This document shows, piece after piece, positions 12,794 through 20,253 of a stretch of DNA of 64,000 nucleotides. The notes under the pieces are model-generated. The model saw only the letters and a program-made list of their open reading frames with translations. It was not told where the DNA came from and searched no databases. Source of the stretch: Paenibacillus amylolyticus (GTDB taxonomy: Bacteria > Bacillota > Bacilli > Paenibacillales > Paenibacillaceae); contig NZ_CP121451.1 in NCBI RefSeq assembly GCF_029689945.1, forward strand, positions 4,898,001 through 4,962,000. Direction: 5' to 3'. Every line of letters starts with the position of its first letter. Position 1 is the first letter of the stretch. The translations under genes and the position numbers were made by a program.

Positions 12794-14532
12794 TCATTCG
12801 CGAATCCATATTAATAGTACAAAACCAATGAGGCCAACCATGCTAATCCAGGTATCACGCTTGGACCATACCAATAACGAAGAGCGTGCTCCTAGCAAAG
12901 AGTGCTCTCTAACTTTACGCATTTCCATCGCAATGGTCATATCCTCTGCACGTTGGAACAGTGCCATTAACAAGGGAATCACCATCGGACCCAAGTCGCG
13001 AATTCGAACGGTATTTGGCCTTAAAGCTACCTTGCCGCGTGCCCGTACAATCAGCGAGAACCGTTGCCATTCACTCCAGATCATCGGAATAAACCGAAAG
13101 ATTAACGATACCGCCAGGGCAAACGAAGCTACGGGCAGCCTAATTTTTTTACCAATACCGAGTACCCAGTTCAGCCCTTCTACCATTCGCCCATAAGGCG
13201 TCGTCAGTGAAAACCAAAGACTTGCCAACGTGACAATAAACAAACGATACACGTTCAGCAAAGTGCCCTCTGCCTGCATCAGGGAGAAGCCAAAGTGCAG
13301 ACCTCCTCCCTCTGTTGAAAGGGTTGTCCCGGATAGCGCCGTTGATATGATGAAAAAGAATAACAGTGGCTTCAATAACTTCATGCATCCAGCCAAAGTC
13401 TGACGCGGTAGCACAGCAAGTGCTGCCACTACTGGCACCAGTGTTAACGTCAATCCCAACCAGCGCTGTTGAAGCATCGCTGCGGTGACCAGTAAAATAT
13501 ACAAAATCCATTTCAGACGCGGGTCCATGACACCATATCGTCCGCCTGATTGAGTCAATGTGTTTGGAAGAAGCTTCGCCTTCTCCCCTTCTAAATTCTC
13601 GATCCCATTGTCGCTCTCTGCCACCCTAATTACCGCTCCAGATGCCTCTTTTGATTTGTTCTGAACGCCCACCTCAACTAGCGTAGACTGAACAATACTT
13701 TCCGAAATCTCCTCTGGCGTCATCCCGGTAAATGGCAAATCAAGACCCGCGGACCTCATCTCCTGTGCTAATCGCATTGAAGGGGGCAGTCCGATCCCTG
13801 TCTGCTCCAACAACTCAGGCCTCTCATGTAGTTCTCTCGGAGTCAGATCGGCGATTAGTCGACCTTCCTGCAATAACAATACCCGATCCGCACAAGGCAA
13901 AAATGTATCCAGATCATGGGTTGCTACAACGACCCCACCATCTGCCTGACGATGTTGCTCCAATACATCCAGCAGCATCCCGACACTTTGCGCTTCCAAC
14001 CCGGCGCTTGGCTCATCCAGCAGCAGCCAGTGTGGATTAGTCGCAATGCCAAGAGCAAGACCCAGTCTGCGCTTCTCTCCCCACTGAGGGCAAATGGCGA
14101 CCTGTCTAGATGAAAACGGCGTTCACCGTCAGAGGATACAGGCGGGTCCCATTGGTTCAGTGCATTTGTGATCTGCTCTCGTTGCTGGTTCTCTGTAAGT
14201 CGATATGGACGCAGAGAATATGCGAATTCACGCTGAATATTTCGGGCAAACAGTTGTTGTTCCGGGAATTGAAACACCAGCCCCATCTGCAATAAAATGG
14301 ACTGCGGCACCTTTCCTTCTTGCCAGAAAGGCATGCCATCTATCGTAACACTTCCTGCATCGGGAGGTCTCAGACCCGCCAGCGTCTGAAGTAAAGTCGT
14401 TTTTCCCGAACCCGTACAGCCCAGCAGTAAAGTAATTTCCCCACTCTTCAAATGAATATTTATATCTTCAAGCAGTGCTCGTCTGCTCAATTCCGATGCT
14501 TCTATTCGTATATTGGTTAATTCGATCTCCAA
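12794..14532 (-). CDS. ECF transporter: EcfA2-type ATPase fused in frame to EcfT-type membrane protein (one frameshift)
   Basis: The first part is an ABC ATPase: 'LLLGCTGSGKTTLLQTLAGLRPP' (Walker A, about residue 38), 'GLVFQFPEQQLFARNI' (Q-loop), then after a lost G in the CCCC/GGGG run at 14079-14082 the next frame reads 'SGGEKRRLGLAL' (signature), 'WLLLDEPSAGLE' (Walker B) and 'VATHDLD' (H-loop). With no stop codon, a linker of about 60 residues follows, then 'MDPRLKWILYILLVTAAMLQ' and a CbiQ/EcfT-like protein of about 245 aa with five hydrophobic helices and the coupling motif 'IVRARGKVALRP'. The internal ATG at 13528 has only a weak ribosome binding site, so fusion seems genuine, although an error could hide a stop. 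It partners ecfA1 and the divergent bioY. Confidence 0.75.
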
Positions 14533-15370
14533 CGTGCGACCTCCTTAGCCAGTTGCTCGGACCGCAGTGGCATGGCTTCTGGCCTCATGCCTTTGTGCTT
14601 GAGCAATAGCGCAGTCTTTACAGTGAACGGAGGGTCCAACCCTAACCGTTCACAGGGAGATAGCCGCTCATTTATCAGCATAGTCTTCTCATTCGTCTCT
14701 GTCTCATAGAAGAAGGATTCGGGCTGCCCGTCGTACACACAAAGCCCTCGGTCAATAGCAATAATTCGATCACACAAGGTCGCTTCTTCCAGATGATGCG
14801 TTATCCAGATTACGGTTGTACCTCGCCGGGTGATTTTCTGAACGATGGCCTCGATGCGGTCTCTTGCTCCGGGATCAAGCATGGCTGTTGGCTCATCCAG
14901 AATCAGTATGTCCGGTTTGGCTGCGAGTGCGACGGCGATGTTAAGCAGTTGTTTCTGTCCACCTGATAACTGTGAGATGGCCATATCCGGGGATATTGAA
15001 GTCCTACGGTATGTAATGCGTCCTGCCTGTGCTCCAATTGTTCTTCTACAGTATTCATTAATTGTGACAATGCATAATGAAATTCCTCTTCAATCGTGTC
15101 CCCCAATACCTGTGCATCCGGTTGCTGCAATACACCCCGAACAGTAAGTTCATCTGAGATATGCCGCACCCCTCCCGATAGTGGAATGAATCCGATGAGT
15201 AGTCCGGCAAGCGTGCTTTTCCCACTGCCATTTGCCCCTACAATACTAATCCATTCTCCTTGATGCACCGTAAGTGAGACACCATCCAGCGCTTTCCTCA
15301 CTTGACCATCTTCCGAAGCATAATGCACTCGGACATCTTCTAAAGTAATGTTGGGCAGGTTGCCTTGCAT
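14517..15370 (-). CDS. ecfA1: ECF transporter ATPase EcfA1/BioM-type (one frameshift)
   Basis: Two frames combine into one CbiO-type ATPase of about 284 aa. The first carries 'ISIVGANGSGKSTLAGLLIGF' (Walker A) and 'GVLQQPDAQVLGDTIEEEF' (Q-loop). The second carries 'MAISQLSGGQKQLLNIAVAL' (signature), 'ILILDEPTAMLDPGARD' (Walker B) and 'VIWITHHLEEA' (H-loop). The break is at about 14987-14992, where the minus-strand CCCCGGAT lacks one G. The start is the ATG at 15370. Its end overlaps the beginning of the A2/T gene by 16 bp, so the ATPase pair is translationally coupled. Together with bioY this gives a complete ECF importer. Confidence 0.85.
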
Positions 15371-16177: not shown

Positions 16178-16414
16178 TCTATATAAATTGAAATAAACAT
16201 TTACACGAAACGAAGAGGACAGAAAGAGCCTGAAGAAGCGAAGCGTTCGCCTACAAGCTTTCTGCAAGAAAGCTACATCGGAAGCATATGCTATCCCCGG
16301 ATTTACTCCTTTATAAAAGGAATCAAAATAATCTGGAGATAACAGCGATCGGAAGGTTGTTCTGTCATCGTAGTGTCCGGTGTAAATATTCTTTAGTTCA
16401 ACTTATATATTCAC
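16178..16414. repeat. MITE-like element, copy A (about 237 bp)
   Basis: Terminal inverted repeats: the left end CTATATAAATTGAAATAAAC...TTTACAC matches the complement of the right end, which on the minus strand reads ATATATAAGTTGAACTAAAG...TTTACAC. The core contains GATAACAGCGATCGGAAGG and AGAGGACAGAAAGAGCCTG, shared with copies B and C in opposite orientation. No ORF. The right end contains the stop codon of the ABC-F gene. Confidence 0.8.
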
Positions 16415-17871
16415 CTGAATCAATTGACGCCCCGTAATCCGAAATTGTTGATCCGCTGTATGTTCAATAAACCTCTGATCATGAGATACATACAGAATCG
16501 TTCCTTCATAAGCCCTGATAAAACGCTCCAACGCCTCCAATGCATGCATATCCAGAAAATTCGTCGGCTCATCCAGCAATAGAATGTTATATTGTCCAAG
16601 AAACAATTGACATAATTGAAGACGAATCGCTTCTCCGCCACTTAATGTCCCAACATTCTTGAGCAAGTCATTCCCTGTAAACTGCATTGCGTGCAACACA
16701 CTTCTCAGCTCTGATTCTTCATATTCCGAACGATTTTTCAGGAATTGTAATACCGTCTCTTTTTCGTGAAACGATAGCTCATTTGCTGAAAATAACCGAG
16801 CTTTGCTTTCGGTGACATCGTGATGTGATCTCCACCATGAAATATATGGTTAAGCAATGTGCTTTTGCCGCTACCATTGGCTCCGGTTATCGCTATCTTT
16901 TGTTTTAATGGAATTTGAAAACTTACATCCTGCAACAATATGTTTCCATCCACCACAAGCGTAAGGCGATCAACCATAATTGGGAATCGGTTGTGCAACT
17001 CCAATGTCTTCGGTTGACGAAAGAGGATGGGCCGTTCCTCTTGCACTGGTTCTACCTCGTGAAGCTGCTGCATCCGCTGTTCAATCGCTTTGGCTGCGCG
17101 GTATACCGCTTTTTGGCTGGTGCCTTTGGATTTTGTCTCAAACATACGATTTGCTTTTGCCTTGGTTTCTTTTTTGGACATGTTTCCGGCCTGCGCTATT
17201 TTCTCGGCTTTCTTCATCTTGTCCTGCGCAGCCAGTTCCAATCTTCTTTTTTCCTTTGAGAATTGTTCATGGGCCTGGTTTTGCTGTTCACGCTCCAGTC
17301 TTTTCTGTGCCTGATAATCGCTATAGTTGCCTGAATAGACGTGCACCTCTCCCTGATGAACTTCCCAGATCGTGGTCACCAGTTCATCCAGCACCGCACG
17401 ATCATGACTGATCAGCACAATGGCGCCATAATAATAACGCAACTCATCCAGTAAAAATGTAATGCCCCCTTGGTCCAAATGGGTTGTTGGTTCATCCAGC
17501 AATAAAACTTCTTGGTAATGAGTGAACATTTGAGCCAGTTTTAGACGGGTCTGTTCACCCCCACTCCACGTTTTATCGTGTTGAGGAATCGCTAATTTAC
17601 TGAGCAAAGCGCCATCAACTTCCAGAATTTCGTTAGGCTGGGGTGGTTCCACTTGTTCCAAATAACCAAACTCTGCGTACCGTTTTACCTTTCCAGCTGT
17701 TGGCTGGATCTGTCCAGCCATGAGTTTCAACAACGTACTTTTACCCTGACCATTACCACCTACTATACCGATGCGATCCAGTTGATGCACAGCCAGTCGT
17801 TCAATGTTCAATACTGCTTTATCCATATAGGTCATCTCAACCTGCTCTAATTCAAAACATATCTTTTCCAT
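16403..17871 (-). CDS. ARE-type ABC-F ribosomal protection protein (Msr/Vga/Lsa-like; one frameshift)
   Basis: Two ABC domains and no membrane segments. Domain 1: 'IGIVGGNGQGKSTLLKLMAG', 'TWSGGEQTRLKLAQM', 'VLLLDEPTTHLD' and 'VLISHDRAVLDEL'. A long charged linker (about 190-265) follows, then domain 2: 'IAITGANGSGKSTLLNHIF', 'LSGGEAIRLQLCQLF', 'LLLDEPTNFLD' and 'LYVSHDQRFIEH'. The frame is broken at about 16766-16773; one missing base restores 'FHEKETVLQFLKNRSEYEESELRSVLHAM'. Such proteins bind the ribosomal E site and displace drugs from the peptidyl transferase centre or tunnel (family knowledge). The start is the ATG at 17871 behind GGAGGTAGCGAAT. It ends soon after domain 2, its TAA lying inside MITE copy A. 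The leader carries two attenuators and an ErmDL-like peptide, which argues for an antibiotic resistance role. Confidence 0.87.
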
Positions 17872-17882
17872 ATTCGCTACCT

Positions 17883-17965
17883 CCGAAATAAGATTTATTT
17901 CGTATCGATAGCGAAGCACACTTCTATCGATACGAGCTTGTCATGCCAGCTCGTATCAATAGAAC
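17883..17965 (-). promoter_or_regulatory. Mutually exclusive hairpins upstream of the ABC-F gene (translational attenuator)
   Basis: On the minus strand, segment 1 (TATTGATACGAGCT) can pair with segment 2 (AGCTCGTATCGATA). Segment 2 can instead pair with segment 3 (CTATCGATACGA). A third stem, CGAAATAA-ATC-TTATTTCG, directly precedes GGAGG of the ABC-F ribosome binding site. Segment 1 overlaps the end of the MMTLLFY leader ORF, so ribosome stalling there would switch the pairing, as in ermC-type translational attenuation. Confidence 0.65.
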
Positions 17966-17979
17966 AGTAACGTCATCAT
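17956..17979 (-). CDS. Second leader peptide MMTLLFY
   Basis: A 7-codon ORF behind a strong AGGAGG (10-nt spacing) reads MMTLLFY and stops inside the first arm of the switching hairpins. It is too short to be a functional protein. Its position between the transcription attenuator and the ABC-F gene is that of a leader peptide. The start could also be the second ATG. Confidence 0.6.
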   Translation of the reverse strand: MMTLLFY

Positions 17980-18042
17980 AAGCGGTGTACCTCCTGTAGT
18001 CTTAACTAGACACCTAGCTAATCAGAATAGTGATGAGTAAAA

Positions 18043-18070
18043 CAAAAAATCACAGGCCAAGGCCTGTGAT
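18043..18070 (-). terminator. Leader terminator (transcription attenuator) of the ABC-F gene
   Basis: Perfect stem ATCACAGGCC / GGCCTGTGAT with a 2-nt loop, then TTTTTTG, on the minus strand. It lies about 115 nt after the first leader peptide and about 170 nt before the ABC-F start, so most transcripts should end here unless the upstream RNA refolds. Confidence 0.85.
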
Positions 18071-18183
18071 TCAATGTAAACGGAAAAACAAGTTAAACCA
18101 TGTATTTAAGGTCAGGATGATTGAAAATGACAGACTGATCCCGTTTACTCTGAACAACCTTCAGAGCCTTTGAACGTATTCAA

Positions 18184-18228
18184 TTACCGATTCAAAGGAA
18201 GGGAACGCAGTCTCATCGCATGTGTCAT
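18184..18228 (-). CDS. ErmDL-like leader peptide MTHAMRLRSLPLNR
   Basis: A 14-codon ORF with AAAGGTGG ten bases upstream. It reads MTHAMRLRSLPLNR. The ErmD/ErmK leader peptide known from Bacillus (MTHSMRLRFPTLNQ, from memory) shares MTH-MRLR, and ErmDL is reported to arrest the ribosome with macrolides at its MRLR segment (an Arg-Leu-Arg '+x+' motif). It is placed between the consensus promoter and the transcription attenuator, as expected for a drug-sensing leader. Confidence 0.85.
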   Translation of the reverse strand: MTHAMRLRSLPLNR

Positions 18229-18275
18229 GTTCAATAATCCACCTTTCATTATCATGTTATAGAAGTACATTTCCA

Positions 18276-18304
18276 ATTATAATTTTCCAATTCCACCATG
18301 TCAA
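18276..18304 (-). promoter_or_regulatory. Consensus promoter of the ABC-F transcript
   Basis: TTGACA (18304-18299), 17-bp spacer, TATAAT (18281-18276) on the minus strand: a perfect sigma-A promoter. Transcription should start near 18270, giving a leader of about 400 nt before the ABC-F start codon. Constitutive initiation fits control by attenuation. Confidence 0.85.
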
Positions 18305-18353
18305 CGGAACCAACAAAACTCTAATTCATTAAATTTCTATTCATTCTGTTTTA

Positions 18354-20253
<1,900 letters not shown>

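Follow-up and report, generated by a model that had tools for sequence, protein, structure and literature searches.

Two putative macrolide attenuators in series precede an Msr-type ABC-F gene in Paenibacillus amylolyticus, the first apparently belonging to a widespread RNA family

In the Paenibacillus amylolyticus window (the whole stretch of 64,000 nucleotides analysed here, positions 4,898,001 to 4,962,000 of contig NZ_CP121451.1) a leader of about 400 nt on the minus strand, flanked by a PTS-like gene on one side and an ABC-F gene on the other, contains a tandem attenuator that is genuine and conserved. We consider it probable, at roughly three chances in four, that two macrolide attenuators in series control this Msr-type ribosome-protection ABC-F gene. 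The first switch appears, by sequence comparison, to be a member of a widespread RNA family found before several kinds of macrolide-resistance genes, and this wider family is the most interesting part of the finding.

A previous sequence-only reading of the region had listed a promoter, a first upstream ORF (uORF1), a terminator, a second ORF (uORF2) and hairpins extending to the Shine-Dalgarno (SD) of the ABC-F gene. All these parts are present and conserved in relatives (Table 1), with a correction to the position of the terminator, which had been placed at 18043-18070. Close relatives carry identical or nearly identical promoter hexamers upstream. The stage-2 region folds with a z of -7.9, not equalled by any of 200 shuffles, and stage 1 with a z of -3.3, equalled by one of 200. 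Loci are designated below by L or G numbers.

Table 1. Features of the leader and of the ABC-F gene, in window coordinates.
Feature	Position	Strand	Basis
Promoter TTGACA-17-TATAAT	18276..18304 (TTGACA 18304-18299, TATAAT 18281-18276)	-	12/12 consensus, sigma-70-type
uORF1 Shine-Dalgarno AAAGGTGG, at the 5' side of helix P1	18239..18246	-	Sequence and pairing
uORF1 MTHAMRLRSLPLNR, R-L-R motif at codons 6-8, ATG...TAA	18184..18228	-	Sequence
Stage-1 RNA P1-P3	18115..18243	-	R2 covariance model, 129.7 bits, E 3e-28 (window is 1 of 20 training sequences); covariation
Helix P1	SD, start region and stall codons of uORF1, paired to 18137-18115	-	Stage-1 alignment
Helix P2 (inside P1)	18198-18189 with 18177-18167	-
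Helix P3 (inside P1), CUCUGAA/UUCAGAG		-
Antiterminator, GGC(U)CUG / UUCA / GUAAACGG (18168-18140) with CCGUUUAC..UGAA..CAG..GCC (18083-18061)	18061..18168	-	Folding, compensatory changes
Intrinsic terminator	18044..18072 (18072-18047 plus T-run)	-	Terminator scan; counterparts in relatives
uORF2 MMTLLFY, stop joined to hairpin segment 1	17956..17979	-	Sequence; AGGAGG 17995-17990 in front
Stage-2 switch, segments 1 (17957-17948), 2 (17938-17924), 3 (17911-17900) and 4 (17891-17873)	17873..17957	-	Fold z, pair counts, R1 covariance model 95.6 bits (window in training set)
ABC-F SD GGAGG, within segment 4	17884-17880; ATG at 17871	-
Msr-family ABC-F, first piece, residues 1-377	16738..17871	-	NF000168 ABCF_Msr_all 547.9 bits, profile 1-370 of 487
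Msr-family ABC-F, last piece, different frame	16403..16699	-	NF000168 144.7 bits, profile 391-486

Over its first 105 nt the stage-1 query shares 84% identity with the leader before a gene predicted as erm(D) in the B. licheniformis plasmid NZ_CP021671, and the uORF counterpart before the predicted erm(D) of L169 is MTHSMRLRFPTLNQ. This similarity and the presence of an R-L-R uORF with its own SD agree with the ErmDL-like first sensor that had been proposed for the window. The same stage-1 DNA was also found before mef(F)-msr(G) in Macrococcoides canis, before an rRNA-methyltransferase/msr pair in Priestia megaterium and before a macrolide phosphotransferase gene in Planococcus. A search against Rfam gave only a sub-threshold mir-126 hit for positions 17700-18500 of the window, and in 20 related loci only T-box and tRNA matches, both located elsewhere than the stage-1 element.

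Both the window and the erm(D) leader could be placed in one stage-1 alignment. Among 20 diverse members 91.9% of the cells of P1-P3 pair, with double-sided changes at 12 of 36 pairs (32 cells); none of 500 shuffles was as high, and slid controls reached at most 9 pairs and 16 cells, although these controls leave kinship in. The third base of the Leu7 codon of uORF1 covaries with its P1 partner (GC in 8, UA in 4, AU in 3 and other combinations in 5 of the 20 sequences). Across 27 sequences the native P1 strands gave a mean of -22.0 kcal/mol versus -16.3 for swapped strands, equalled in none of 5000 permutations, and for P2 and P3 one and none of 5000 permutations, respectively, were as good as the native strands (kinship is left in throughout these comparisons). 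In a larger alignment of 66 distinct R2 rows from the 67 places classified below, double changes occur at 34 of 35 pairs and in 357 cells, whereas shuffles gave 112 (sd 12) and slid controls no more than 89; these rows had been fitted to the covariance model and are hence biased towards it. An R-L-R sensor is less easily reconciled with two loci, L009 and L014, which have MRLY and MRLH in place of MRLR and keep the stage-1 RNA.

All 27 leaders with an RLR-type uORF1 have, behind it, a stable hairpin and then a T-rich run. The sequences, gene associations, conservation and alternative pairings are shown by the analysis, and the stalling, the nature of the drug and the succession of steps are inferred; on this basis stage 1 would work as follows. 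With no drug present, the pioneer ribosome would complete uORF1, P1-P2-P3 would form and the polymerase would stop at the terminator; P1 would also shut the start of uORF1, so that only a ribosome starting before P1 is complete could read it. The same early-ribosome logic, together with NusG pausing, is described for tlrB (PMC6851288; here and below, PMC numbers refer to excerpts of the papers). With a macrolide, the ribosome would stall at the R-L-R codons. As these lie in one strand of P1, neither P1 nor part of P2 could form under it, and the freed strand would pair with the 5' arm of the terminator to give the antiterminator.

Folding of the window RNA up to the terminator loop is consistent with this scheme, since the 5' arm of the terminator was in the antiterminator with a probability of 0.86 when the first 34 nt of uORF1 were blocked versus 0.01 unblocked. 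In the 20 of the 27 leaders for which the comparison was made, the blocked probability was 0.83-1.00, but 17 of the 20 already exceeded 0.4 unblocked. Because many relatives thus form the antiterminator at equilibrium even unblocked, the stage-1 model leans on the co-transcriptional order of folding. In the core of the antiterminator 98.1% of cells are canonical, and one pair has gone from G-C to A-U, both sides being altered, in L019, L020, L021 and L025 (the L019 group); the terminator stem likewise covaries. An alternative antiterminator, formed by 18137-18115 with the terminator arm, was unsupported and the longer helix of Table 1 took its place. The terminator and the competing antiterminator, as seen by sequence and folding, thus favour the transcription attenuation by uORF1 that had been suggested.

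We have compared the leaders of related ABC-F genes across the family. Matches to the first piece of the window gene (E<=1e-80) were found in 65 of 394 family genomes and fall into two clades, A (that of the window, 55-92% identity) and B (39-45%). The hosts of the close relatives are P. amylolyticus, P. xylanexedens, P. tundrae, one strain filed as P. polymyxa and others, while the relatives in Sporosarcina and Tetzosporium show 63-74% identity. By inspection, clade A loci mostly carry a uORF1 of the MTHAMRLRFLPLNR type and a uORF2 ending in LLFY or alike. The stage-2 covariance model (R1) found 37 places in 35 of the 394 genomes, 33 of them before msr and 4 before mef-like genes, and 25 of these 33 msr loci in Paenibacillaceae also carry stage 1. 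The remaining eight (L018, L032, L033, L035-L038 and L043) have no recognised stage 1. In L018, which has no R2 match, uORF1 and P1-P3 appear to have been deleted naturally and the promoter leads straight into the terminator, so that the msr gene should be largely off. In four other clade A loci (L039-L042, 58-60%) the stage-1 RNA lies further upstream or alone, with no R1 match. The two stages in series that had been read from the window alone are therefore, as far as anatomy and comparison tell, a conserved property of these leaders.

Clade B loci (L027-L031, L044-L067, L069 and L071-L073) have a different second-stage module. Their second uORF ends in HWYFFI or a variant (PNWYIYI, IHLYFFI or YWFYFFI) in 32 of 33 loci, all but L048, and the first is often MxHSMRLR or MxHSMRIR, with MFFPVI, MWFTLCA, MIPRIW, MYFPVV or MFLLFV in some loci. 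Closely behind the uORF there is an anti-SD-like stretch, such as CCUCCCUUC, that judged by eye might base-pair with GAAGGAGG in the msr SD, and also a competing local hairpin, AAUCGCAGG/CCUGCGA. We had considered that these msr genes might share the same stage 1, but none of the 33 loci matched R2.

The second switch has the geometry of a translational attenuator. In ermC the uORF overlaps segment 1 of the leader and the pairing 1:2/3:4 alternates with 2:3. Likewise, in the window uORF2 overlaps segment 1, the pairings 1:2/3:4 and 2:3 are mutually exclusive and the SD lies inside segment 4, which holds it in the 23 aligned clade A leaders too, so that the uORF2 and switching hairpins noted earlier at the ABC-F SD probably constitute a conserved ermC-like scheme. 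Over these 23 sequences the SD-masking pairs 1:2 + 3:4 are formed in 95.6% of cells and 2:3 in 92.0%; double changes affect 6 of the 24 pairs of the former and 3 of the 12 pairs of the latter. The terminator scan detected no Rho-independent terminator between uORF2 and the ABC-F start. Messenger RNA that has read through the first terminator would carry uORF2, and a ribosome held at its end (LLFY, with the stop codon in the A site) would cover segment 1; 2:3 could then replace 1:2 + 3:4, exposing the msr SD.

The peptide itself is conserved. We searched for uORFs with the stop joined to segment 1 and segment 2 behind, without requiring LLF, and all 26 distinct sequences obtained end in L-L-F-(Y/F/H)-stop. 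In the 24 sequences with a recognised start and SD, 4 different codons occur at one Leu position and 5 at the other and, since LLF(Y/F/H)-stop persists through these synonymous codons, it is the peptide, and not the DNA alone, that is kept. The R1 matches outside this search pattern in L125, L130, L134, L138, L147 and L171 also end in LLF(Y/F)-stop. The ending is not universal, however, as the mef-side match of L168 ends in LFFY-stop and a match in L194 (26.9 bits) does not fit.

Equilibrium folding gives weak support to the second stage. With a ribosome at the end of uORF2 the accessibility of the SD increased in 16 of 20 leaders (mean from 0.40 to 0.51; L138 and L167 are not covered), but the gain was 0.02 or less in several of them, the value fell in L037, L043 and L204, and in the window it changed from 0.40 to 0.43. 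Until segment 4 has been transcribed, 2:3 forms in the blocked RNA, and with another 3' end 2:3 wins. Since the gain in accessibility is small, the case for the second switch depends less on energy than on conservation and geometry. The little SD released, together with the eight msr loci that have the LLFY module and no recognised stage 1, is what one would expect if only stage 1 sensed the drug and translation of uORF2, or ribosome density on it, opened the SD hairpin by coupling, or if the hairpin just damped leakage. We regard this as unlikely because coupling alone needs no conserved amino acids, against what is seen in the 26 uORF2 sequences, and because in L038/L075, L037/L076 and L167 the module lies between mef and msr, in the place that the drug-arrested peptide MsrDL (MYLIFM) occupies in Streptococcus according to the excerpts of PMC10314930. 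Like MsrDL, the LLF(Y/F/H)-stop product is a short hydrophobic peptide just upstream of msr. It is much less probable still that the second hairpins act mainly on the stability or processing of the mRNA and not on initiation. Mef(E)L is reported to affect stability too (PMC4335068), but the SD is held in segment 4 throughout the aligned clade A leaders and, by eye, clade B can mask it at the same place with a quite different hairpin. Two drug-sensing attenuators in series thus remain our preferred reading.

The gene controlled is assigned, by its profile matches, to the Msr family. The intact protein of the relative L004 scored 738.1 bits with NF000168 (cut-off 680), compared with the two separate matches of the window gene, the frame of which is interrupted, in the present assembly, near 16,740, a break that the sequence-only reading did not mention. 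The open frame of 400 amino acids compares with 484-550 in most clade A relatives, and L022, L025 and L026 also have shorter ABC-F frames or partial matches. All this might point to a decaying locus, in which the ABC-F frame is truly broken in the strain and the leader regulates nothing useful. However, the leader is intact, and the genes around it at 12794-15370, 16403-17919 and 18397-20247 also seem split between frames, as from assembly indel errors, while the PTS-like neighbour is a single continuous frame in L018. The completeness of the window genome is 95.84, versus 99-100 for most close relatives, as expected from such errors. Because the neighbours also look split and the completeness is low, a sequencing error is the likelier cause of the break, and decay seems to us quite unlikely.

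To establish the distribution of the stage-1 RNA we searched 398 sampled Bacilli genomes. A sequence pattern was found in 36 of them, 12 in the genus of the window and 24 outside, two of the latter (L137 and L175) being chance matches that were dropped from the count. In the other 22 the first recognised downstream gene was always msr, mph, erm, mef, an rlmA-type gene or hflX, although in L143/L179 it lies as far as 1.1 kb downstream of stage 1. The R2 covariance model (E<=0.001) detected 104 places in 92 of the 398 genomes, of which 12 are in the genus of the window, 22 had already been found by the pattern and 70 remained; even among the weakest matches, with 32-40 bits, many are still upstream of hflX. 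Leaving out G652, G705 and G827, we classified 67 of these further places by BLAST of the downstream ORFs against nine reference proteins, and 59 precede genes of the same kinds: hflX 20 (housekeeping hflX and hflXr pooled), erm 15, mph 8, mef-like 7 (with no more than 28-31% identity to the reference in six cases), msr 6 and rlmA 3. When seven of the nine references were checked against NCBIfam, HflX, Erm and Msr passed the cut-offs, and rlmA, mph and mef are to be taken as class names by similarity because their models matched below the cut-offs of the named subfamilies. The other 8 places (L191, L213, L216, L235, L248, L255, L256 and L268) fit no class or only doubtfully. In L213, L235, L256, L255 and L248 the genes downstream of the stage-1 RNA, by eye those of MFS transporters and of an SDR-like enzyme, are candidates for new macrolide-inducible genes.

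The two modules are also found together outside the Paenibacillaceae. Six loci (L127, L138/L180, L173, L195, L204 and L217) have both before msr with no gene between, so that loss of mef from a mef/msr leader is only one possible origin of the leader in the window. In others there is a gene between the modules, namely mef(F) in L167, an MFS (mef-like) gene in L168 and, in both L171 and L147, the gene of a macrolide phosphotransferase, and in L144 and L145 stage 1 precedes msr with no R1 match. The first slot is variable. The uORF1 of Sporosarcina L127, MTHSMRLRFPTLNR, is one residue off ErmDL, and in L075, L076 and Sporosarcina L125/L126 this slot is occupied, before mef or msr, by a uORF encoding MAFLQLY, MAFLELY or MGFVQLY with its own terminator. 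As differing first uORFs precede the same second module, the first-slot sensors are exchanged and the second stays.

Several elements of this leader have been described in other systems. RLR leaders before msr or mef have been published, and so has the attenuation of ABC-F genes at two levels. MTASMRLR is the sequence of both Msr(A)L and Mef(E)L (PMC4335068), and msrD is under two leader peptides, MefAL (MTASMRLR) and MsrDL (PMC10314930), so an RLR sensor before an ABC-F gene is not as unusual as had been supposed for the window. By the description of the streptococcal operon in those excerpts, the mefA/msrD leaders also comprise an RLR peptide first and a short hydrophobic one just before msr, but in that operon they are separated by mefA and both work at the level of transcription, whereas the window has no gene between and its second stage is an SD switch with no terminator. 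Similarly, the mef(F)-msr(G) operon of M. canis plasmid pMiCAN82a has both modules by model (R2 157.2 and R1 83.2 bits), with mef(F) between them, unlike the window. The erm(D)/erm(K) leader (ErmDL) shares the R-L-R uORF, P1-P2-P3, the terminator and the sequence identity given above; in the window this first stage lies before msr, and a second attenuator, apparently a translational one, comes after it. That of ermC is translational (PMC10219788); the window peptide ends in LLFY-stop and is the second in a series, the alternation of segments being shared as set out above. In vmlR (PMC9226507), cplR (PMC10201436) and tlrB (PMC6851288) transcription and translation attenuation act on one gene as in the window but, as far as the excerpts describe, a single uORF does both there and two uORFs in the window. 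The hflXr leader rli80 has a 14-aa RLR ORF and transcription attenuation (PMC6310831), and hflX is the largest class behind the stage-1 RNA; unlike the window it has a single stage, and the likeness concerns the uORF as described, a shared fold not being described in that excerpt. In the open-access literature searched we found no account of the shared stage-1 RNA family nor of a single leader in which each of two uORFs serves one level, which is weak evidence of absence, and no paper on the HWYFFI peptide or on a uORF in a Paenibacillus ABC-F leader.

Taken more generally, the P1-P2-P3 and terminator switch with its R-x-R uORF could be a general macrolide sensor of Bacilli, a cassette moved among erm, mph, mef, msr, rlmA and hflX genes, to which Msr-type genes would add the translational LLFY sensor. 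The msr product would then be made only if both nascent-peptide tests are passed, as in a serial AND gate, possibly with different drug spectra. We propose this tentatively, as its chances are in our judgement slightly under even. The separate accounts of erm(D), mef/msr, hflXr and tlrB, each centred on a single gene, now look like one RNA family with a testable fold, and the R2 sequence model can be used to find unrecognised macrolide-inducible genes. The LLF(Y/F/H)-stop peptides and the HWYFFI-stop peptides of clade B are candidates for new drug-sensing arrest peptides. Furthermore, the tandem leader poses the question of why two nascent peptides should be queried serially before one resistance protein.
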